Shown here: piece after piece, positions 12,832 through 61,250 of the stretch
How positions within the stretch are numbered: the first letter of the stretch is position 1
Layout of the letters: every line of letters begins with the position of its first letter
Origin: Sipunculus nudus
Taxonomy: Eukaryota > Annelida > Sipuncula > Golfingiida > Sipunculidae
Length of the DNA: 64,000 bases
Assembly (NCBI GenBank): GCA_026874595.1
Contig: CM049306.1
Location: 16,143,019-16,207,018, forward strand
Direction: 5' to 3'
The notes under the pieces: model-generated
Database searches by the model: none
What the model was told of the DNA's origin: nothing
What the model saw: only the letters and a program-made list of their open reading frames with translations
Program-made: the position numbers and the translations under genes

Positions 12832-13702
12832 GCCCCTTTTTAGCAAACCTGTGTGCTTATGGGACGGTGTAGCATTGTCTCTCATCCACACGTTAACCTA
12901 TACCATCTCGAAAATAGCAGGAGCTAAAATCACAAAATTTTACCCAAAAAATTAGACATCTAAAAAACTCTATAAGATTTGGCTGATTTTGGCTGTCTGC
13001 ATTGCCTTAAAATTTACAGGGAAAAAGCTAAAAAATACTTAAAAATCTTCTTCTTTGAAACTGTCCAGGCAAATTGCTTAGTATTTCATAGAAATAATCC
13101 CTGAAACAGTCTCTCTGTAGTTTATGCAAGTGGTTCCAGTTTGGTGATCTTTGGCCGAGTTACAGGAAGCCATATAAGCATACTAAAACTACAATCTCAG
13201 AAATGACAGGAGATATCATCACCAAATTTTATGCAAATGTTGGTCATGAGTCATATTTGAAACTGAGGTATTGGTGGCGCCACCTGAATCAACCTCTTTT
13301 GTACGGGGGTCATTTGTCATCAGTACATTAACCCATAATTTCTCAGGAACAACAGGAGCTAGCATCACAAAATTTTATGCAAAAATCAGTCACATGTCAA
13401 ATGTTGTGGGATTGAGCTTTTTGTGGCCCCACATGTATCAACTTAAATTTTACAGGGGAAAAGCTAGAAAATCTTTAAAAATTCTTCTTCTCCGAAATCA
13501 TTAGCCACATTGTTCAATATTTCACAGAAATGATCTCAGAGACGAGCTCTCAAGTCCTCAAATGGTTTGGGTTCAATGAATTTTGGCCAAGTTACAGGAA
13601 TTTGAACTTAGTCATTTTAGTAATGACTAAGTAAGTTTACAAACATAACAGTCATAAGAAACAGCAGGAACTATCATAACCAAATTCATGTAAATGTTGG
13701 TC
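12832..13702 (+). repeat. Family B element, 5' part
   Basis: The head TTTTTAGCAAACCTGTGTGC resembles the heads at 54.75 and 63.37 kb. Two units follow with ATCACAAAATTTTA blocks; the exact palindrome GGTGGCGCCACC is at 13273-13284. The copy is cut at about 13703 by a family A head, and B sequence resumes at 16932. Confidence 0.7.
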
Positions 13703-16700
13703 ACATAAGTCATTAGCTCAGCTGACTTTCAGTCATGCTGAGCTATAGCGATCACTCTTTGTCTGTCGTCCGTCTGTCCGTCTGTCCGTTAACGTGGCAC
13801 AAATCGTAACCGCTGGACTTAGAATCTTGTAACTTTACATTCTGAGAGGTCAATGAAAAATCTCCTTGGAAACCAGAAATTAGGTCTCTGTTACCCATAT
13901 CCTTCGAGCTATTGGGCCCCAAAGTACCCCCAGAATAGTCAAAATTTTCATACAAAAACTTTAATATCTCATTAACTACATCACTGATGGTCATAATTTT
14001 TGGCATACATATTGATCATGAGATGTTTTATCAGTTTCTGCAGACTGGTGGCGCCACCTGTATTTTTCGATTCTTTACGAATTGTTTTCTCTGTTTTTGA
14101 GGTCTTTAAAAATGTGGACATCTGTTAACAGGGCAAAAATCGTTAAGACTGGACCTAGAATCTTCATTCTTAACACAGTGAGAGACCTATGAATAGTCTC
14201 CATGGAAACCTGAAATAAGGTCTCCGTTACCAATATCATTTGAGCTGTGGGGCTCCCAATTACCCCCCAGAATAATGGAAAATTTGATTTAAAAAAACTG
14301 CAACATCTCAATAACTACAGTACAGATGGTCATGATTTTTGGCATACATATTGATCAAGAGGTGTTCCATCATTTCCTGCATACTGGTGGCGCCACCTGT
14401 ATTTTTTCAAATTTTTACAATTTTTTTTTCTCTATTTATGAGACTTTTAAGGATGTAGTTATCTGTCAACAAGGTACAAATTGTAATGACTTGACCTAGA
14501 ATCTTTATTCTTGACACACAGGGAGACCCATGAAAAGTCTCCATGGACACCTGAAATTAGGTCTCTGTTACCCATATCCTAAGAGCTATGGCACTCCAAA
14601 GTACAGCTCGGAATAATGGAACATTTGATACATAAGCTGAGTATCTGAACAACTAATGCAGAGATCACCATAATTGTTTGCATGGATATTGATCATGGAG
14701 TGTTTCATCAGTTTTTGCAGACTGGTGGCACTACCTGTATTTGTTTGGGTTTTTTAGCTCAGCTGACTGTAAGTCATCTGAGCTATATCGATCACTCTTT
14801 GTCCGTCGTCCGTCCGTCTGTCCATCCGTCTGTCCTAGAATCTTGTAACTTGACATTCTGAGAGGTCCATGAAAAATCTCCTTGGAAACCAGAAATCAGG
14901 TCTCTGTTACCCATATCCTTCAAGCTATGGGGCCCCAAAGTACCCCCCAGAATAGTAAAAAATTTCATACAAAATCTTCAATATCTCATTAACAACAACA
15001 CTGATGGTCAAGATTTTTGGCATACATATTGATCATGAGATGTTTCATTAGTTCCTGCAGACTGGTGGCGCCACCTGTATTTTTCGATTTTTTACGAATT
15101 TTTTTCTCTATTTTTTCGACCTTTAAAAATGTGGACATCTGTTAACAGGGCACAAATCGTAAAGACTGGACCTAGAATCTTCATTCCTGACATTCTGAGA
15201 GACCTATGAAAAGTCTCCATGGAAACTAGAAATTAGGTCTCTGTTACTCATATCCTTCAAGCTATGGGGCCCCAAAGTACTCCCCAGAATAGTGAAAAAT
15301 TTCATACAAAAACTTCAATATCTCATTAACTACATCACTGATGGTCATGATTTTTGGTATACATATTAATCATGCGATGTTTCATCAGTTTCTGCAGACT
15401 GGTGGCGCAACCTATATTTTTCGATTTTTTACGAATTTTTTTCTCTATTTTTGAGACCTTTAAAAATGTGGACATCTGTTAACAGGGCACAAATCGTTAA
15501 GACTGGATCTAGAAGCTTTATTCTTGAAATTCTGAGAGACCTATAAAAGTCTCCATGGAAACCAAAAATTAGGTCTCTGTCACCCATATTCTTTGAGCTA
15601 TGAGGCCCCAATGTACCCCCCAGAATAGTGAAAAATTTCATACAAAAACTTCAATATCTCATTAACTACATCACTGATGGTCATGATTTTTGGCATACAT
15701 ATTAATCATGAGATGTTTCATCAGTTTCTGCAGACTGCGGATGCCATCTATATTTTTTCGATTTTTTACGATTTTTTCTCTATTTTTGAGACCTTAAAAG
15801 ATGCAGTCATCTGTTAACAAGGCACAAATCATAACAACTGGACCTAGAATCTTCATTTTTGACATTGGGGGAGGCCCATGAAAAGTCTCCTTGGAAACCT
15901 GGAATTAGGTCTCTGTTACCCAGATTCTTCAAGCTATGGGGCTCTGAAGTACCCCCGCTGAATAATGAAAATTTGATACAAAAACTGAAATATCTGAACA
16001 ACTAATGCATTGATTACCATGGTTCTTTGCATGCATATTGATCATGAAGTGTTTTATAGGTTTCTGCAGACTGGTGGCGCCACCTGTATTTTTCGATTCT
16101 TTACAAATTTTTTTCACTATTTTTGAGACCTTTAAAGATATGAACATCTGTTAACAGGGCACAAATCATAACAACTGGACCTAGAATCTTCATTCTTGAC
16201 ACACTGGGAGACCCATGAAAAGTCTCCTTGGAAACCTGAAATTAGGTCTCTGTTGCCCATATCCTTCATGCTGTAGGGCCCCAAAGTACCCCCCAGAATA
16301 GTAAAAAATTTCATACAAAGAGATCATGAGATGTTTCATCAGTTTCTGCAGACTCCCTAGAAACCTGGAATTAGGTCTCTGTTACCTATATTCTTCAAGC
16401 TATGGGGCTTGTTACACATTTTTACATATTTTTTCTCTATTTTTAAGACCTATAAGGATGTGGTTATGTGTCAACAGGGTACAAATTGTAACAACTGGAC
16501 CTAGAATCTTCATTCTTGTCATGCAAGGAGGCCCATGAAAAGTGTCTGTGGAAACCTTAAATTAGTTCTCTGTTTCCCATATCCTTCAAGCTATAGGACT
16601 CTGAAGTATCCCTCAGAATAATGGAAAATTTGATTCAAAAGCTGAAGTATCTGAACAATTAATGCAGAAATCACTATGATTCTTTGCATGGATGTTGACC

Positions 16701-16931
16701 ATTAAGTGTTTTTATTAGTTTCTGCAGACTGGTGGAACCACCTGTATTTTTTTTAAAGTTTACGCATTTTTTCCCATATTTTGAGATATATAAATTCAGA
16801 AACAATCTTGGCTTATTCTTTAATCTCTTTGATGCTTCAGTTGAATGGGTATATACTACCATTCAGATGATAAAATTTCCTTTTGCAAATCTCTTCCCAG
16901 TCAGCTGAGCGTCATGACCCATGGGTCACTT
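13703..16931 (+). mobile_element. Family A array (two heads, one tail)
   Basis: Heads with TTAGCTCAGCTGACT lie at 13707 and 14752; each forms a hairpin (TAGCTCAGCTGACT / AGTCATCTGAGCTA) and is followed by GTCCGTCCGT-type sequence. About nine ~338-bp units follow, marked by GGTGGCGCCACC at 14047, 14386, 15064 and 16073, with decayed versions at 14727, 15401 and 16731. The tail has CAGTCAGCTGAGCGTCATGA then the palindrome TGACCCATGGGTCA and CTTGTT. The repeated minus-strand peptides (KDMGNRDLISGF) come from the unit and show no sign of being a protein. Confidence 0.8.
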
Positions 16932-17440
16932 GTTTTGAAATTGAGATATTGGTGGCACCACCTGCATCAACCTCTTTTGTACAAGGGTCATCAGTCATCA
17001 GTAGATTAACCTATAATTTCTCAGGAAAAAAGAGGATCTAGGTTCACCAGGTTTTATGCAATTGTTGGTCACATGAATCCTATTTGAAACTAAGGTCTTT
17101 GTAGTGCCACCTGCATTGACCCGTTTTTTTTTTTTTATTGGGCAAATAATTTAAGTCTCTTTCAGTTTCTACATTAAAAATGTTTTATGATGAAATTGTC
17201 AAGCTGGATAGTTTTTTAATTTTTTCACAAGATTTATCCTAGGGTAAGGTTCTCTCAATTGTAAAAGAATAGACTGGGTTCATTAATTTTTGGTAGAGTT
17301 ATAGAAAGCTGAAGTTGGTCTTGTGGCCAAGTTAGCCTATATCAAACTGAAGGCTGCAATAGTCATCTTCTGCAAAACTGTTGTTTCAAATTCTGTAACA
17401 TTGCACAAACATTAATCTTAGGTGGCCTTTGTTCAAGTAA
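16932..17440 (+). repeat. Family B element, continuation after the A insertion
   Basis: The sequence repeats the GAGATATTGGTGGCACCACC block of B at its start, then a shorter unit with a GTGCCACCTGCATTGACC block, and drifts into a tail shared with 55255-55460. This supports the reading that A is nested in B. Confidence 0.6.
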
Positions 17441-17710
17441 CTTAAATGTTTTGGCTGAATTATTGGACCTTTAACAATAAAATGACTGTGAGATACTTTG
17501 TGAAAAAAAGCTGGTAGATTTTATTGTATTTTATTTTTATTATTTTTTTATTTATTGTAACAGACTGAGGTCTGTGGAATCTAAGCAGAGCTGTACAGGC
17601 AACATAAGTAATTGGTCTCCATATCCAGCTTATGTGCAAGATAAGTCCATGAATAAAATATTTCTGTATTCTGATTTTGCTTTCAATATGCATCTGTTAT
17701 TATTGAAGTG

Positions 17711-19170
17711 TCAGACAAAGTCAGAATACTATGGTTTAAGCACATTCGCGCCACCACCGCCACAGAGATTCCATTTGGATGCAATAACTCATAAAGTACT
17801 TTACTGAGCTTTACCAAACTTGACATGTGCATGGATATGGGTGAGAGGATGAAGCTTATTTAAAACCCCCATCATTGCTACTTAACAATACTGTGAGCAT
17901 TATAAGTAAATACTAATGGACAGATTTCTTTCATATTATGCATATACATAGACATGGGTTATAGGATGATGTATATTTAAATGGGGGTCATGACCTTTCC
18001 TATGAGAGTGGCCTTGACCTTGAACATTGCCATATATATGGTGAAAATCACACAAAATTATAAATGGATTATAAGGGATGCATGGATTGACCAAAGATTT
18101 TGGATAGCTTTGTCTTCTGTGGAAGACAGGTGGCGCCACCTTCTGTCCTTTTCTTTTTTTGCACCTTTTATTATCCAAACATTGCCACTTGACAGTACTG
18201 TGAGCATTACAAGTCCAAAACTAATCGACAGATTTGGCTTAATTTTGCATGTCCATTGATTGTGGATACCGCCATCTTGTATTAAAGACTGGTTTCTTTA
18301 ACTGCAATCATAATTGTGTGCATTTGATTTAGGTGAAAATTGCTCATATCTCCGGAGTAATTCAAGTTATTGGTCTGAAATTTGGCATGTCCATCCATCT
18401 TAGAAAGTTTTCTTGTAAACCAGACAGGTGGTGCCCCTGACCTTCCAGATTTTGTTAAATAAATTAATGCTCTTTTCTGAGGATTGATTTGCCCTATTGG
18501 CCTGAAATTAAGCATATCTATAGATCTTGGACTCCTCCATCTTGTACTCAAGACTGGTGGCACCATCTGCAATCATAATTGTGTGGTGTCCATCTGTACG
18601 TTTGATTTTGGTGAAAATTGCTCATATCTCCAGAGTGATTCAAACCAGACAGGTGGTGCCCCCTACCTTTCTGTTTCTGTAAAATAAATTAATGCTCTTT
18701 TCTCAAGAGTGATTTGCCCTATTGGCCTGAAACTGTACATATCCATAGATCTTTGACTCCTCCATCTTGTACTCAAGACTGGTGGCACCATCTGCAATCA
18801 TTTTGCCATGGCGTCATCTGTACATGTGCTTTGGGTGAAAATTGCTCATATCTCCGGAGCAATTCAAGGTATTGGTCTTAAATTTGGCATGTCTGTCCAT
18901 CTTGGAAAATTTTCTGATGAGCCAGACAGGTGGTGCCACCTACCTTTCAATTTCCGTAAAATAAATTAATGCTGTCTTCTCAAGAGTTATACCCTTTATT
19001 GCCCCCATATTTGGTGAAAAATATTGTTTCTCAAGTTAATAGATGTAAGAAACCATAGTCACCTGCCAAGTGTCAGTATATGCTGCTGAAAATGGGGGGC
19101 CTATTCTTAAAGGGGGGGGGGATTTTGCCTGGGGACACTTTGGCACTTGCAGTGCCAAGAAATATCTAGT
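17711..19170 (+). mobile_element. Family E element with D units inside
   Basis: The E head (GACAAAGTCAGAATACTATGG) runs to about 18245, including GGTGGCGCCACC at 18129-18140. Several D-type units follow to about 19030, then the E tail. The tail ends with a perfect 8-bp stem TTGGCACT-tgc-AGTGCCAA at 19140-19158, 7 bp, and CTAG at 19166-19169 followed by T. This is the cleanest Helitron-like 3' end in the window. A G10 run precedes the stem. Confidence 0.7.
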
Positions 19171-31825: not shown

Positions 31826-32333
31826 TTGTATCCCCAGACAAAGCAGAGAGATATACTATGGTTTTATGTCGGTCCCAACAAATTCTTAAATATCTGAAGA
31901 TATCTTGCATAGATTGGTCCAAAAATCAAGTTGACCAAAGATCATGGATGGCATTGCCATTTACCAGAAACTGGTGGCACCACCTATTATCTTTTTCTTG
32001 TTTTCATGCCTTTAAATACCCCCATCATTGCCACTTGATAGTACTGTGAGCATTGTAACTCAAAAACTAATTGACAAATTTCCTTCATATCATGCATATA
32101 CATAGATATAGGTAATGGGATGAGGTATATTTAAATTGGGATCATAACCTCTCCTATGAGAGTGGCCTTGACCTTGAATATTCCCATATTTGGTGAAAAA
32201 TATAGTTTCTCAAGTTGAAAGATGGAAGAAACCATGGAGTATATGCTTCTGAAGATGGGGGCCTAGTCTTGGGGAGGGGGGGGGGGGAGTAATTGTCTGC
32301 GGATACTATCGCACCAAGAAATGTCTAGTTGTT
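31826..32333 (+). mobile_element. Short family E element
   Basis: The head TTGTATCCCCAGACAAAG is the inverse of GTCTGCGGATAC near the tail (32295-32306). The inside carries GGTGGCACCACCT near 31973 and a block with GTGGCCTTGACCTTGAA, then a G-rich run and the tail AGAAATGTCTAG|TT. It has no tandem core, unlike the other two E copies. A family A element begins directly at its end. Confidence 0.7.
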
Positions 32334-34478
32334 TTTAACTCAGCTGACTGTAAGTCATCTGAGCTATAACAATCACCATTTGTCCGGCGTCTGTCCAGCC
32401 GTCGGTTAACAGGGCACAAATCATAACCGTTAGACCTATAAATCTACTTGGAAACCTGAAATTAGGTCATGGTGACCTATATTTTGTGACTTGCGGGCTG
32501 AAAACATGATTTTGAGCACCTAGACAGTCAGACAGGGCACAAATTGTATCCATTAGGCCTAGAAAACTCTAACCTGACATTTTGGGATATCCTAGGCAAA
32601 TGTCCTTGGAAACCCGAAACTAGGCCACTGTGACCTATATTCTTTGACCTATAGGGAAAAGATGTCAAATGAGCACGCTGAATGTCAGATGGGTACAAAT
32701 CGTATCTGTGTAGCCTAGAATCTTTTTTAACACAATATCCTGGGAGTTCCTAGGCAAATCTCCTTGGAAACCTGAAATATGGTCATGGTGACCTAAATTT
32801 TATGACCAACTGGCCAAAAACATGATTTTTAGCCTCCAGACAGTCAGACGGGGAACAAAATGAATAGCCAAGGCCTAGAGTCCTCCAATGTGACTTTTAG
32901 GAAGGTCCTAGGCAAATCTCCTTGGAAACCTGAAATTAGGTCATGGTGACCTATACATTGTGACCTACAGGCGGAAAACATGATTTCAACACCCTGAATG
33001 TCAGATGGGACAAATAGTATCCATAAGGCCTAGAATCCTCCAGCATGACATTTAAGGAGGTCCTAGGCCAATGTTCTTGAAACTCCAAAATTAGGTCACT
33101 GTGACCTATATTCTGCGACCTATAGGAAAAAGATGTTGTATATACACCCTGAATGTCAGATGGTGACAAATCATATCTGTAAGGCCTAGAATCTTCTTAC
33201 ACAATTTCCTGGGAGGCTCTAGGCAAATCTCATTGGAAACCTGAAATTAGGTCATAGTGACCTATATTTTGTGATCTACTGGCCGAAAACATGATTTTGA
33301 GCACCCAGACAGTCAGATGGGTAACAAATAGTATTCATTAGACCTAGAATCCTCCAACATGACATTAAGGGAGGTCCTAGGCAAATGTTCTTGGAAACCT
33401 GAAATTAGGTCAATGTGACCTATATTCTGCGACCTATAGGAAAAAGATGTCGTATGAACACCCTGAATCTCAGATTGTGACAAATCATATCTGTAAGGCC
33501 TAGTATTTCTTCTTAGAAAATTTCCTGGGAGGCTGTAGGCAAATCTCCCTGGAAACCTGAAATAAGGTCATGGTGACCTACATTTTGTGACCTACAAGCC
33601 AAAAAAAAATCTGATTTTGAGCACCCTGAATGTCAGATGGGCACAAATCATATCTGTTGGGCCTGGAATCTTCTAATGCAAATATCCTGGGAGGTCCTAG
33701 GCAAATCTCCTTGGAAACCTGAAATTAGGTCATGGTGACCTACATTTTGTGACCTACAGGCCAAAAACAGGATTTTGAGCATCCAGAAAGTCAGGCAGGG
33801 CACACATTGTATTTGTTAGTCCTAGAATCTTCTAATGTAACATTCTGAGATGTCCTTTGCAATGTCTGTGGAAAACTGAAATTAGGTCACCATGACCTAT
33901 ATTTTGCGACTTTAGGAAAAGAAGTCATAAAGGCACCCAGACAGTCAGTCAGGGCACACATTGTATCCATTAGGCGTAGAATCTTTTAATTTAAAATTCA
34001 GGGAGGTCTTAGTCAAGTCTCCTTGGAAAAATGATATTAGGTCGTGGTGACCTATATTGTATGACCTATGGACTAAAAAATGGTTTTGAGCACCCAGACA
34101 GACAAGGCAAAAATTGTATTCATTAGCCCTAGAATCTTCTAACATGACATTCAGGGAAATCCTTGGCAATTCTCCTTGGAAACCTGAAATTGGACCATGG
34201 TGACCTATATTCTGCCAGCTATGGACCAGAAACATGATTTTGAGCACCCAGACAGACAGGGTACAAATTGTATCCATTTTCTTTGGAACGTACCCCCTAT
34301 TGTGATATCCAGGGGGCCCTGGGCAGGTCTCCTATGAATCCTGAAATTTTTATTTTCTGTCCATTTTTTAAACACTAACTTTAGCCATAGGCCTTTCTCA
34401 CAGACAATATATAACATTAATAAAAAAATAGCACCCAGCCTAAATAAGCTGAGCGTCATGACCCATGGGCCACTTGTT
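32333..34478 (+). mobile_element. Complete family A element with ~157-bp ERE-type units
   Basis: The head TTTTTAACTCAGCTGACTG and the tail GCTGAGCGTCATGACCCATG (then GGCCACTTGTT) are those of family A, but the core differs: twelve units of about 157 bp. Exact AGGTCAnnnTGACCT palindromes lie at 32464, 32938, 33093, 33249, 33407, 33565, 33727 and 33884. One- or two-base variants lie at 32622, 32780, 34039 and 34192. The 12-bp GC palindrome is absent here. Confidence 0.8.
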
Positions 34479-34479
34479 T

Positions 34480-35480
34480 GTTTTTGTTTTGGTGTACCTT
34501 GTTTATTAACAGTTTTAGATAGGAGAGGTAGGTCATACATGCATGCATAACATTATAAGAACCTTTCTTACCAGAAATGTCCTGTAGTTAATTAATATAT
34601 ATGCAGAGTAAGCAAGAAATCACTCAAATTCTGCAGATAAGGCAGGTGAATTGCTGCATGGCTTTAAGCATCAGATTCTGTAAGGATATACCAATCAGAT
34701 ACCTGTAGTCATGGTGTGGTTTAATCTTTATAGTCTCCAGATCACCACAAAATGTGAATACAATGGTCTTGTACACACAGAAGTTTCAGTTTACTAAATA
34801 TATAATGTAATCTCTATGAATAAAGCCACTTTTTGTGGTATTAACCCCTGATATAAATTAACAGATATATTTTATCTGGACATTTAACCTGATTAAATTT
34901 TGTAAATTTAATTAACCATTGTTATATAAGGTCTTATTTACCTGTAATTAGGGAAAGAGAGTTCAGATTTAGCAAAGAATAAATGTTAGACAGACTCCAT
35001 GGATTCTTAATGATGTATAAGGACAGGTCATCCTATGGCTTGCAGGTGAACAGTTGATATTTCATTCCTGAGCTTGAGGCTATAAACCAAGTCTAGACAC
35101 CTATGGAGAGAAGCACAGGCTAGCAAGTAAATTACTGTGCATGTGAAAATATCAATTATTATCCTTCTAGAATAAGTAAATGTGATTTATGAAATATAGT
35201 GTCCTGGAAAAAGTCCAGTAAGCTTAAAGAGAAATCTTTTAAATTCTTTTTTTTTCTATTTAATCTATATAAACAGGATTCCATAGAAAACATGTATTGT
35301 TATATATGTTTAAAAGACTGCATACCTAAAACATTTAAAATACTCATTAATTTGATATATATAAAGAATAAACTACAGAGAGCAGACATTTAGGAAATGT
35401 AGGGTTGACTGGCATGATAAACAGTGACCAGTACTTAAAGTGTTTTAACAGGATTAATTTTGGTATTGCATATAGAGCAG
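34480..35480. other. Unique intron sequence
   Basis: AT-rich, with nothing recognised. A TTTTTTTT run lies near 35247. Confidence 0.45.
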
Positions 35481-43383: not shown

Positions 43384-44442
43384 AGCCCTCAGCCCTTAGG
43401 CTGATGGGCTATTGTCGTCACCCAAGCTGTCCGTCCGTCCGTCCGTCCGTCGTGCCGTCGTGCCGTCCGTCCGTCCGGCGTCCGTTAACTTTAACCTTGT
43501 GAGCGGGATATCTTGAAAAGGATTCACCGTCAGAATTTTATTTCCTCGGTAAAGATGTATAGCGACAAAATCTCGGTCAAGTTCGAAGATTGGTGACCTT
43601 GACCTTTTTCTACATTTTAGAGCTGATTATAGAAAAACACTTAGATGCTTATTACTCAGGAACCATTTGGTGGATTTTCACAAAACTTTCTATGATTATT
43701 GGGACTGATAATCTGTACCTGCTACACAAGTTTGGTGGCGCCACCTACAATTTCTGATTTTTAATGAATTTTTATCAGATTTTTCAACTTTGGGCTTGTG
43801 AGCGGGATATCTCTAAAAGGTTTCACCGTAGGAATTTTATTTTTTCGGTGAAGATGTATATTGACAAAATCTCAGTCAAGCTCAAAGATGGGTGACCTTG
43901 ACCTATTTTTCTACGTTTTAGAGCTGATTATAGAAAAAAACATTTAGAAGCTTATTTCTTAGGAACCATTGGGTGGAATTTCACAATACTTACTATGATT
44001 ATAGGGACTGATGGTCTGTAACTGCTGCACAAGTTTGGGGGCGCCACCTGCAATTTCTGATTTTTAATGAATTTTTCTTGGAGTTTTTCAATTTTGGCCT
44101 TGTGAGCAGGATATCTCTAAAAGGATTCACAATAGGAATTTTATTTCTTTGGTGAAGATGCATATCAACAAAATCTCGGTCAAGTTCGAAGATGGGTGAC
44201 CTTGACCTGCTTTTCAAGGTCACAGAGCTTATAATAGAATAAAACTTAGAAGCTTATTTTCAGGAGGCATTTGATGGATTGTTATGAGTCTTAGTACATA
44301 CCTCTCCATTTTAAATTTATAACTGAGACATGTACAGATATACATCCATGTGAGAACAGATATTTAGTACTTGTCACTGTTACCACCTCTAAACACTGTT
44401 CTTTTGGCTGAGGGCTTTTGTCAGCTTCAGCTGATATTCTAG
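43384..44442 (+). mobile_element. Family G element with ~300-bp units
   Basis: The left end AGCCCTCAGCCCTTAGGC folds on TGATGGGCT and is inverted at the right end (GGCTGAGGGCTTTT, 44406-44419). GTCCGTCCGT repeats follow. Three units start with TTGTGAGCGGGATATC at 43497, 43796 and 44099; GGTGGCGCCACC is at 43734-43745, with a variant at about 44037. TGACCTTGACCT occurs in each unit. The right end has TCAGC-ttca-GCTGA, TATT and CTAG|TTTT. Confidence 0.75.
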
Positions 44443-52082: not shown

Positions 52083-53640
52083 TCCATTTTTAACTCAGCT
52101 GACTGAAAGTCATCTGAGTTATAGTGATCACTCTTTGTCCGTCGTCCCTCTGTCTGTCCATCTGTCCTTCTGTTGTGCCGTCATTCAGTCCATCTGTCCA
52201 ATAACAGGGCACAAATTGTAACCACTGGACCTAGAAACCTCTTACTAATAACCAATAAAGGTCCACAATAATCTCCTTGGAAACCTGAAATGGGGTCACT
52301 GACCTATATTCTCAGAGCTATGGGGTTAGAAAGTACCCACCAGAATAATAAAAAATTTGACACAAAAGCTCCAATCAGAATAACTTACACATTGAAGGCG
52401 AAGATTTTCGCCATGCATATTGATCATTAAGTGTTTTATAACTTCCTGAAGCCTGGTGGCACCACCTGTATTTTATTCTAAAAAAATTGTATATGTTATT
52501 TTCTCTATTTTTCTGACCTTCAGATGAAGCGGTTTGTCAGTAAACAGGGCACAAATCATAACCGTTAAACCTAGAAATTTCAAATATACATCCAGGCAAG
52601 TCTCATTTGAAACCTGAAATTAGGTCATGGTGACCTATATTTTGCAAACTACCGTACATGCTGAAAACTTGATTTTTACCATTCAGTCAATCAGATAGGG
52701 CACAATTTGTATCCAACCTAGAATCTACTCACATTACATCCATAGAGATCCATGAAAAATCTCATAGTGAACATGAAATTAGGTCACTGTGACCTATATT
52801 CTCTGAGCTATTGGGCTCGAAAGTACCCCCCAGAATAATTTAAAATTAGATACAAAAGCTCCAGTATCAGAAAAACTAATGTATTGATTGCAAAGATTAT
52901 TTCCATGCATTTTGATCATGGGGACTTTTATCATTTCCTGAAGACTGTTGATGCTACCTGTAATTTTTTCTAATTTTTATGCATTTTTTCTCTATTTTTC
53001 AGACCTTCAGAATAAGCAGTCCATCAGTTAAAAGGGAACAAATAGTAAGGGTTAGAACTAGAAACTTTTTACTTAACATCCAGGGAGGTCCTAGTCAAAT
53101 CTCCTTTGAAACCTGAAATTAGGTTATGGTGACCTATATTTTGTGAACTGCAAGCTGAAAACATAATTGTGAGCATCCAGTCAGTCAGAAGGGGAACAAT
53201 TGTGTCTGCTAGGCCTAGAATCTTTTAACATGACATTCAGGCAGGTCTTCAGTAAATCTGCATGGAAACCTGAAATTAGGTCATGGTGACCTATATTCTG
53301 TGAACTTTGGACCAAAGACATGATTTTTAGCACCATGAAAATCAGATCGGCACAAATTGTATCTGCTGGCCGTGGAATGTTACAATGTATATACAGGGAA
53401 GTCTTGGGAAATATCCATGGAAACCTGGAATTAGGTCATTGTGACCTATATTTTGCATGCTACTGGCAAACACATCTTTGACAATCTCCATGGAAACCTG
53501 AAATTAGGACATGGTAACTATGTTACCGGCCAGAAACGTTTTCAGCACCTAGACAGTCAGACAGGGTACAACACTTTTCTGTTTGACCTAGAATCTTCTG
53601 TCTTGACATCCGGGGATGTCCTTCAAAATAGGCATGGTCA
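52083..53640 (+). mobile_element. Family A copy mixing both unit types
   Basis: The head is at 52088. The core alternates units of the GGTGG-CCACC type (GGTGGCACCACC near 52456) with ERE-type units: AGGTCAnnnTGACCT exact at 52622, 52781, 53278 and 53433, and one mismatch at 53121. No A tail was found before the next head at 53643. Confidence 0.7.
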
Positions 53641-60297: not shown

Positions 60298-61250
60298 GTT
60301 TGTTTGTTTGAATGATTTATTGACACAATACATAGTAAGTACATTCATGTGGTATTCTACCTAAGCACATATATAAATATAAACATGTATCAATAGATTG
60401 AGCGCAAGCTACTTAAAGCTTATGAAGCTCGCTCCTGAATTCTAAAGTGGTAATTTTCTGATGCATGGCAAGGGGGGGGGGGGGGGTGTGATGTTAACAT
60501 ATTGATGACTGGAGTATCATGGAAGATGTGGATAGCATAATGACTATGTTTTTAGTTGTGATTTGGAAAGTGTAAGGTGCCAGTTGAGAGGAGAGAGAGA
60601 GTTTTGGTGGGTGTGGGATGAGTTTGTCAAAATCGTCAAATTATTTTATGTTAGAATCTGTTTGAGTTTTCAATAAAGTTTGCTACCGATTCGAATATTT
60701 CCTTGTTTGATTTGTCATCTATTTTTGGGTTACCAAAAAGTAAAACTTTTAATGGGGTATCCCTAGGTAAGTATGTTTTCCTAGTGGAGTTATAGAGGTG
60801 GCATTGCAGTAGGTAGTGGTTGGGATCTTCTGATGGGTGGCCACATTGACATTTTTTGGTGTCGCTAATATGTCTTGTGTACATATGATAATTTAGATCA
60901 CTACATTTCATTCTCATGCGTGCATGGATTATTTGTGATTTTCTGGTTCCTGAGTTGTAGTATGTAGGTGTTTTAGTTCTTAGAGCTGATTTTTTCAATT
61001 GGTAGTTTAATGAGGCACTTGTTAAGCAAGCTTTCTTATCAAGATCCATTTGGTTCCATAATCTGATTGATTTTGGAAGAAATGAGTTGAAATATAAATC
61101 AGTTCTTGCTTGTATTGGAGTAAGGTTGTGTATTACAAATCTGGTTTCGTATAGTATAGTAAGGTAGTAGGTAGTATTGCTTAACTGAATGCCATTTCTT
61201 AATGGCAATATTTGAAACCATAATCTTAATATTTAGCATATTTATTAGCT
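60298..61250 (-). pseudogene. LINE ORF2 C-terminus and 3' end
   Basis: A 185-codon frame (61208-60651) reads FLPKSIRLWNQM, IIHARMRMKCSDLNYHMY and KKCQCGHPSEDPNHYLLQCH. The HAR-RM-CS-LN block and the CxC-x7-H-x4-C motif mark the C-terminal domain of non-LTR retrotransposon ORF2 proteins. A TAA lies in frame just upstream, so only the end is left. On the same strand the 3' flank ends with TGTGTCAATAAATCATTCAA. It is in the minus orientation, like the 25-28 kb LINE. Confidence 0.75.

Follow-up and report, generated by a model that had tools for sequence, protein, structure and literature searches.

Thousands of consensus oestrogen-response elements carried by HINE-like repeats in Sipunculus nudus: a striking feature with a probably ordinary explanation

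Why should the genome of Sipunculus nudus harbor a regular row of palindromes spelling out the consensus oestrogen-response element (ERE)? The question is raised by a stretch of 64,000 nucleotides (GenBank assembly GCA_026874595.1, contig CM049306.1, positions 16,143,019 to 16,207,018 of the forward strand), referred to below as the window, the coordinates being those of the window unless a contig is named. Within 32464-34206, a re-scan returned the same counts as the original prediction, i.e., eight exact AGGTCAnnnTGACCT palindromes and four near matches spaced at 153-162 bp from start to start, and the combination of intact arms with differing central triplets was also found as described there. 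The exact sites possess the spacer TGG (32464..32478, 32938..32952, 33565..33579, and 33727..33741), CTG (33093..33107), TAG (33249..33263), ATG (33407..33421), or CCA, the commonest spacer of one monomer subfamily (33884..33898). A single mismatch is present at 32622..32636 (spacer CTG), 32780..32794 (spacer TGG), and 34039..34053 (left arm AGGTCG); the last palindrome of the array, at 34192..34206, is degenerate and has three mismatches. The sequence of AGGTCAnnnTGACCT is that of the consensus ERE, and the reverse complement of the palindrome at 33093..33107, AGGTCACAGTGACCT, is presumably identical to the vitellogenin A2 ERE.

A second array on the plus strand (52622..53447) comprises four more exact AGGTCAnnnTGACCT sites, starting at 52622, 52781, 53278, and 53433, along with one palindrome bearing one mismatch. 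Overall, 12 exact sites were observed in the window vs. 0.002 predicted from base composition alone; when inverted AGGTCA/TGACCT pairs were scored at gaps from 0 to 9, there were 12 pairs at gap 3 and one at gap 0. Other elements of the window include a 304-bp tandem array (43487-44265), in which GGTGACCTTGACCT, a direct repeat of the TGACCT half-site, occurs three times, and 12 open reading frames of at least 110 aa. An open frame of 193 aa on the minus strand (60651-61232) features a cysteine-histidine end (CQCGHPSEDPNHYLLQC), which looks like that of a non-LTR retrotransposon protein.

The array is embedded in an element (32333..34478, plus strand) whose sequence displays a HINE-like, i.e., Helentron-associated, layout, with similar ends found at part of the other loci sampled. 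Its left module on the plus strand includes a 5' subterminal inverted repeat (subTIR) of the form CTCAG..GACT / AGTC..CTGAG at 32339..32363, for which a single-stranded DNA fold of -7.1 kcal/mol was predicted (z -3.1, none of 200 shuffles being equally stable), followed by a degenerate GTCC/GTCT microsatellite recognized by eye at 32382..32406. The subTIR motif recurs to the left of other copies: the strict pattern of this left-end type was detected at 14 of the 55 loci and a loose one at 38 of 55, some of the latter being internal as judged by eye. Runs resembling GTCC/GTCT are visible by eye in several other loci as well, as are T-rich left flanks. The central part (32440..34259, plus strand) was recognized by TRF as a tandem array of approximately 158-bp units belonging to several subfamilies, with periods of 158 (11.3 copies), 314, and 469. 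The 3' module (34446..34477, plus strand), delineated from the sequence, is composed of a presumed subTIR AAGCTGAGC followed by the palindrome CATGACCCATGGGCC and a terminal CACTTGT; the fold of this 3' end was no better than that of shuffles (z -0.26). Right ends of the type CATGGG(C/T)CACTTGTT were present at 10 of the 55 loci and GCTGAG appeared on the right side of the array at 25 of them, many of these loci being incomplete; none of the 55 had the window copy's exact AAGCTGAG(C/T). In one locus (L044, possibly also in L009 and L010), a 3' end is directly followed by a new 5' start (CATGGGCCACTTGTT, AGCTCAG), which suggests head-to-tail insertions. A search of Rfam with 32200-34600 returned no match.

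Thus described, the element has a 5' subTIR with a complementary inverted repeat, a left microsatellite, and central tandem repeats in the range of 140-180 bp, so its layout appears broadly that of the HINEs of the Pacific oyster. In the available parts of the account of Cg_HINE elements of Crassostrea gigas and the related bivalve pearl elements (PMC7492417), the same left module is described, with a subTIR, an inverted repeat, and a GTCY-type microsatellite (GTCY, GTCC, and GTCK variants being reported from the left flanks of oyster HINEs), together with the same short array of 140-180-bp units, a right module with a subTIR and a 3' palindrome, and a T-rich insertion site. Some of the oyster units are also reported there to contain segments of reduced variability; the likeness described here is one of layout. 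The words "estrogen" and "transcription factor" are absent from the text of that paper. The BIV160/Cg170 satellite family, which according to the portion of its description at hand (PMC5139131) is related to the repeats of pearl-type elements, likewise has units of about 160 bp, with two conserved motifs. When the two published BIV160 primers alone were compared with the array, no significant match emerged, the best score being 11, which 20% of shuffles also attained.

How far does the feature extend beyond the window? In the 1.43-Gb assembly, there are 13,612 exact AGGTCANNNTGACCT sites vs. 93 matches to the reversed pattern, an approximately 146-fold excess. Exact palindromes flanked by GAAATT and ATATT number 4,194 genome-wide (2,039 on the plus and 2,155 on the minus strand). 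Forty EREs were cut out of the first 50 among the sites listed (10 were omitted, eight of them lying inside loci already fetched), and 30 of the 40 matched the palindrome-masked unit at E <=1e-4; several of the remaining 10 share part of the conserved box described below, as judged by eye. The feature is thus both real and striking, and its explanation is probably an ordinary one, namely HINE-like repeats that contain a consensus ERE and exist in thousands of copies; this element and its relatives seem to house the majority of the 13,612 exact sites. At the same time, TGGAAACCTGAAATT and ATAT flank a stretch of 15 unspecified bases at 14,509 places genome-wide, and among the first 100 of these listed, exact EREs numbered six, with 37 places reading exactly AGGTCTCTGTTACCC, the form found at 13.8 and 26.3 kb of the window in 337-bp arrays. 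Since so few of these same-flank relatives (the first 100 of 14,509) carry an exact ERE, the box is shared with no requirement for the ERE.

Abundance of a palindrome in this genome is not special to nuclear receptors: a comparator, AGGTGGCGCCACCT, occurs 41,727 times genome-wide vs. zero for reversed controls, and to our knowledge it is no nuclear-receptor site. The palindrome GGTGGCGCCACC/AGGTGGCGCCACCT is presumably reminiscent of the insect CTCF motif with its core doubled; within the window, GGTGGCGCCACC (12 exact) or GGTGGCACCACC is found at 17 sites in six groups between 6789 and 56618, with flanks that do not match one another. The first 100 places listed for TGGTGGCGCCACCTG (C1:140933-2068544) comprise 64 on the minus strand and then 36 on the plus strand. 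Megabase-scale strand domains are not claimed as a general feature, as the listed places of another repeat formed 24 runs vs. 26.4 expected, a difference that was not significant in a runs test, and a rarer pattern was mixed along the same contig. In C1:10738403-10810606, a 35-base piece of a 279-bp unit gave 39 matches on one strand within 72 kb, this unit forming a long local array on C1 and being dispersed elsewhere.

If the palindromes were retained for their own sake, their arms should stand out from the rest of the unit across many copies. For this comparison, monomers were sampled by seeding on GGCCTAGAATCTTC (2,798 places), a word of the unit remote from the palindrome, so the sampling was independent of the latter. 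The 60 regions fetched were all from contig C1, and five of them yielded no monomers; a palindrome-masked profile gave 453 matches, of which 295 monomers from 55 loci, covering at least 80% of the unit, were kept. Measured against the subfamily consensuses, private divergence was 0.112 for arm columns and 0.227 for spacer columns, with a value of 0.151 for all others, the box among them. The palindrome belongs to a 44-bp conserved box, exemplified by 33225..33268 on the plus strand (24 bp, the 15-bp palindrome, and 5 bp), and the part of the box adjoining the palindrome diverged by 0.104, arms minus box coming to +0.008 (locus bootstrap: -0.007 to +0.025). Uncorrected for subfamilies, arms minus all other columns was -0.039 (-0.054 to -0.022), and base-matched draws were as low as the arms in 3% of cases when taken from the other columns and in 17% when taken from the box. 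Sliding along the unit, the shape of the two arms ranked 15th of 136 positions by divergence. Removal of subfamily-diagnostic columns brought the values together (arms 0.110, box 0.101, rest 0.122): the interval for arms minus rest then spanned -0.027 to +0.005, with 30% of the base-matched draws falling at or below the arms.

With one half of the columns used to pair monomers and the other half to score them (40 splits), the divergence was 0.157 in the arms, 0.148 in the box, 0.189 in the rest, and 0.277 in the spacer; for all within-subfamily pairs, the respective figures were 0.195, 0.182, 0.262, and 0.343. In no comparison was the mean rate of the arms below that of the box, i.e., the arms were not conserved beyond their surroundings. 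Fully intact arms were encountered in 118 of 280 monomers, above all seven 12-column controls (the best of which reached 83/275). Among the six subfamily consensuses, variable columns made up 1/12 in the arms, 2/29 in the box, 36/106 in the rest, and 3/3 in the spacer; box and arms together (3/41) differed from the rest at a Fisher p of 0.0007, the arms alone at 0.10, and the spacer from box and arms at 0.0015, these statistics being derived from six consensuses only, with spacer columns that are not mutually independent. A free spacer between kept arms among the consensuses is the pattern that would be expected of a dimer-binding dyad in an active element.

Taken over the sampled monomers, the conserved unit is the 44-bp box with the palindrome in it, its arms behaving like the non-palindromic box beside them; relative to the rest of the unit, they are either lower in divergence or not distinguishable from it, depending on the correction applied. 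The statement that the palindrome is among the best-conserved parts of the unit holds insofar as the arms fall below the remaining columns before correction, and it fails to single out the palindrome, which equals the adjoining box. The proposed comparison of arms with the rest across copies thus came out mixed and mostly against arm-specific retention: 0.112 vs. 0.151 uncorrected speaks for it, 0.110 vs. 0.122 after correction is not significant. As to the suggestion that selection or homogenisation had kept the arms, an older constraint on the whole box, dyad included, is possible for the time when the element was active, such a constraint not being arm-specific, and homogenisation was not borne out by the array comparisons given next. 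Since preservation of the palindrome does not exceed that of the adjoining sequence, it appears to have been inherited and not retained for the binding of a receptor.

The history of the arrays bears on several of the competing explanations. Gene conversion or unequal exchange within an array could keep its palindromes alike, and the regular tandem units would fit such a process, as would a modest excess of same-locus nearest relatives (18 of 287 monomers vs. 6.6 expected by chance) and a mean distance of 0.279 within vs. 0.287 between loci. Against this, 269 of the 287 monomers had their nearest relative outside their own locus, the nearest distances having a median of 0.215 within loci vs. 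0.129 between them; homogenisation is contradicted for this sample and we regard it as highly improbable. A run of subfamilies 3-3-0-5 recurred in seven of the 23 loci with at least six monomers and was absent from the other 16, and the arrays look copied rather than homogenised. Spacer triplets are subfamily markers: at exact sites, CTG accounts for 14/20 in one cluster and CCA for 12/15 in another, TGG leading in the other four. Inversion of a TGG spacer to CCA by a flip of the palindrome was considered for the subfamily with CCA in 12/15 exact sites and rejected, as its other diagnostic bases resemble those of the CTG subfamily and CTG and CCA are two substitutions apart. Another conceivable reason to retain a palindrome is the formation of a DNA hairpin in single-stranded rolling-circle intermediates. 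The 15-mers do fold at -3.9 kcal/mol, with equally stable shuffles in 1/200 (TGG form) and 16/200 (CTG form) cases, and doubly changed arm pairs are in excess (46 vs. 21.5 expected); on the other hand, only 17 of these 46 pairs are complementary, close to the third that chance alone would give, and uneven divergence of monomers would also yield the excess, which makes retention as a hairpin very unlikely. Part of the load may also be a mutational by-product, some perfect EREs arising in the relatives with a CTG spacer from CpG decay of AGGTCACTGCGACCT to AGGTCACTGTGACCT. Allowing R/Y at the inner arm bases raised the count from 13,612 to 17,899 sites (4,287 extra; reversed control 382), and among CTG-type relatives one arm contained a CpG in nine of the first 50 sites listed. 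In the 158-bp unit, however, a right-arm CGA was met in 6/295 monomers and a left-arm TCG in 1/295; because CpG arms are so rare among these monomers, CpG decay does not explain the 158-bp array. For the CTG-spacer relatives, we hold such a contribution to be conceivable, if somewhat doubtful.

It can also be supposed that the dyad is a genuine site for a nuclear receptor of the host (an ER-like one or some other that binds AGGTCA), exploited by the active element, e.g., for germline expression, the arms being under selection at that time. The sequence is a consensus ERE, the spacer is free and the arms are kept among the subfamily consensuses, and the genome contains 67 zf-C4 matches, including an ERR-type DNA-binding domain with the P-box CEACKAFFKRT on contig C3. 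Among molluscs, the Pacific oyster is stated in the available part of PMC4070562 to possess both ER and ERR, and a snail ER-like protein is reported in the accessible text of PMC3778743 to bind GGTCAnnnTGACC via its DNA-binding domain in a gel shift without ligand; the same text reports no ERE binding by the snail ERR, with the data not shown there. In S. nudus, no canonical ER P-box exon was found with the patterns CKAFFK(R) or AFFKR(S/T)IQG, which does not imply absence in an assembly with gaps and masked stretches. The only other match to CKAFFK(R), on contig C14, lies outside all listed open frames of at least 30 aa on its strand, and no AFFKR besides that of ERR was present in the 30 of 67 zf-C4 matches examined (the two of ERR included), the segment being outside the frame read in L115 and L125. 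The equal conservation of the arms and the non-palindromic box beside them, and the mere six exact EREs in the first 100 same-flank relatives, also speak against a role of the dyad in receptor binding, and this explanation seems unlikely to us.

Judging from sequence comparisons, a passive load of EREs spread by a Helentron-type element, its arms free of specific conservation, is probably the right explanation. The palindromes are part of a conserved 44-bp box within the units of about 158 bp repeated in tandem at the centre of a HINE-like, presumably rolling-circle, element. In the ancestral element, a row of distinct monomer subfamilies was likely already present, each with the box and the palindrome. 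Such rows of monomers would have been copied by transposition, whole or in part, presumably in the rolling-circle mode, and the copies may then have decayed at a roughly neutral rate. The regularity of the spacing would simply reflect the length of the unit, and the variable central triplet would mark the subfamily. The outcome would be a large passive load of consensus EREs, any binding of a receptor to them probably being incidental.

Repeat families are known to contribute oestrogen-receptor sites in mammals, where the transposons MIR, ERV1, and ERVL are bound by ER-alpha. According to the available portion of that work (PMC3478180), the binding was documented by ChIP-seq and the MIR core contains half-sites, whereas in S. 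nudus full palindromes are present. As far as the portions of the open-licence literature on EREs with transposable elements or satellite DNA extend, no report of a mollusc repeat carrying EREs was found.

It would be a bold proposal, and quite an unlikely one, that the dyad in the 44-bp box was bound by a host nuclear receptor while the element was active and that the 13,612 exact palindromes may now serve genome-wide as a sink or raw material for regulatory sites of an ER-like or other AGGTCA-binding receptor. In genomes of this kind, counting motifs near genes without first masking the repeats will be misleading. In this one genome, perfect EREs are about 146 times as frequent as the reversed control, and 30 of the 40 sampled fall in one kind of transposon repeat. 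The occupancy of transposon EREs by an invertebrate receptor thereby becomes directly testable.
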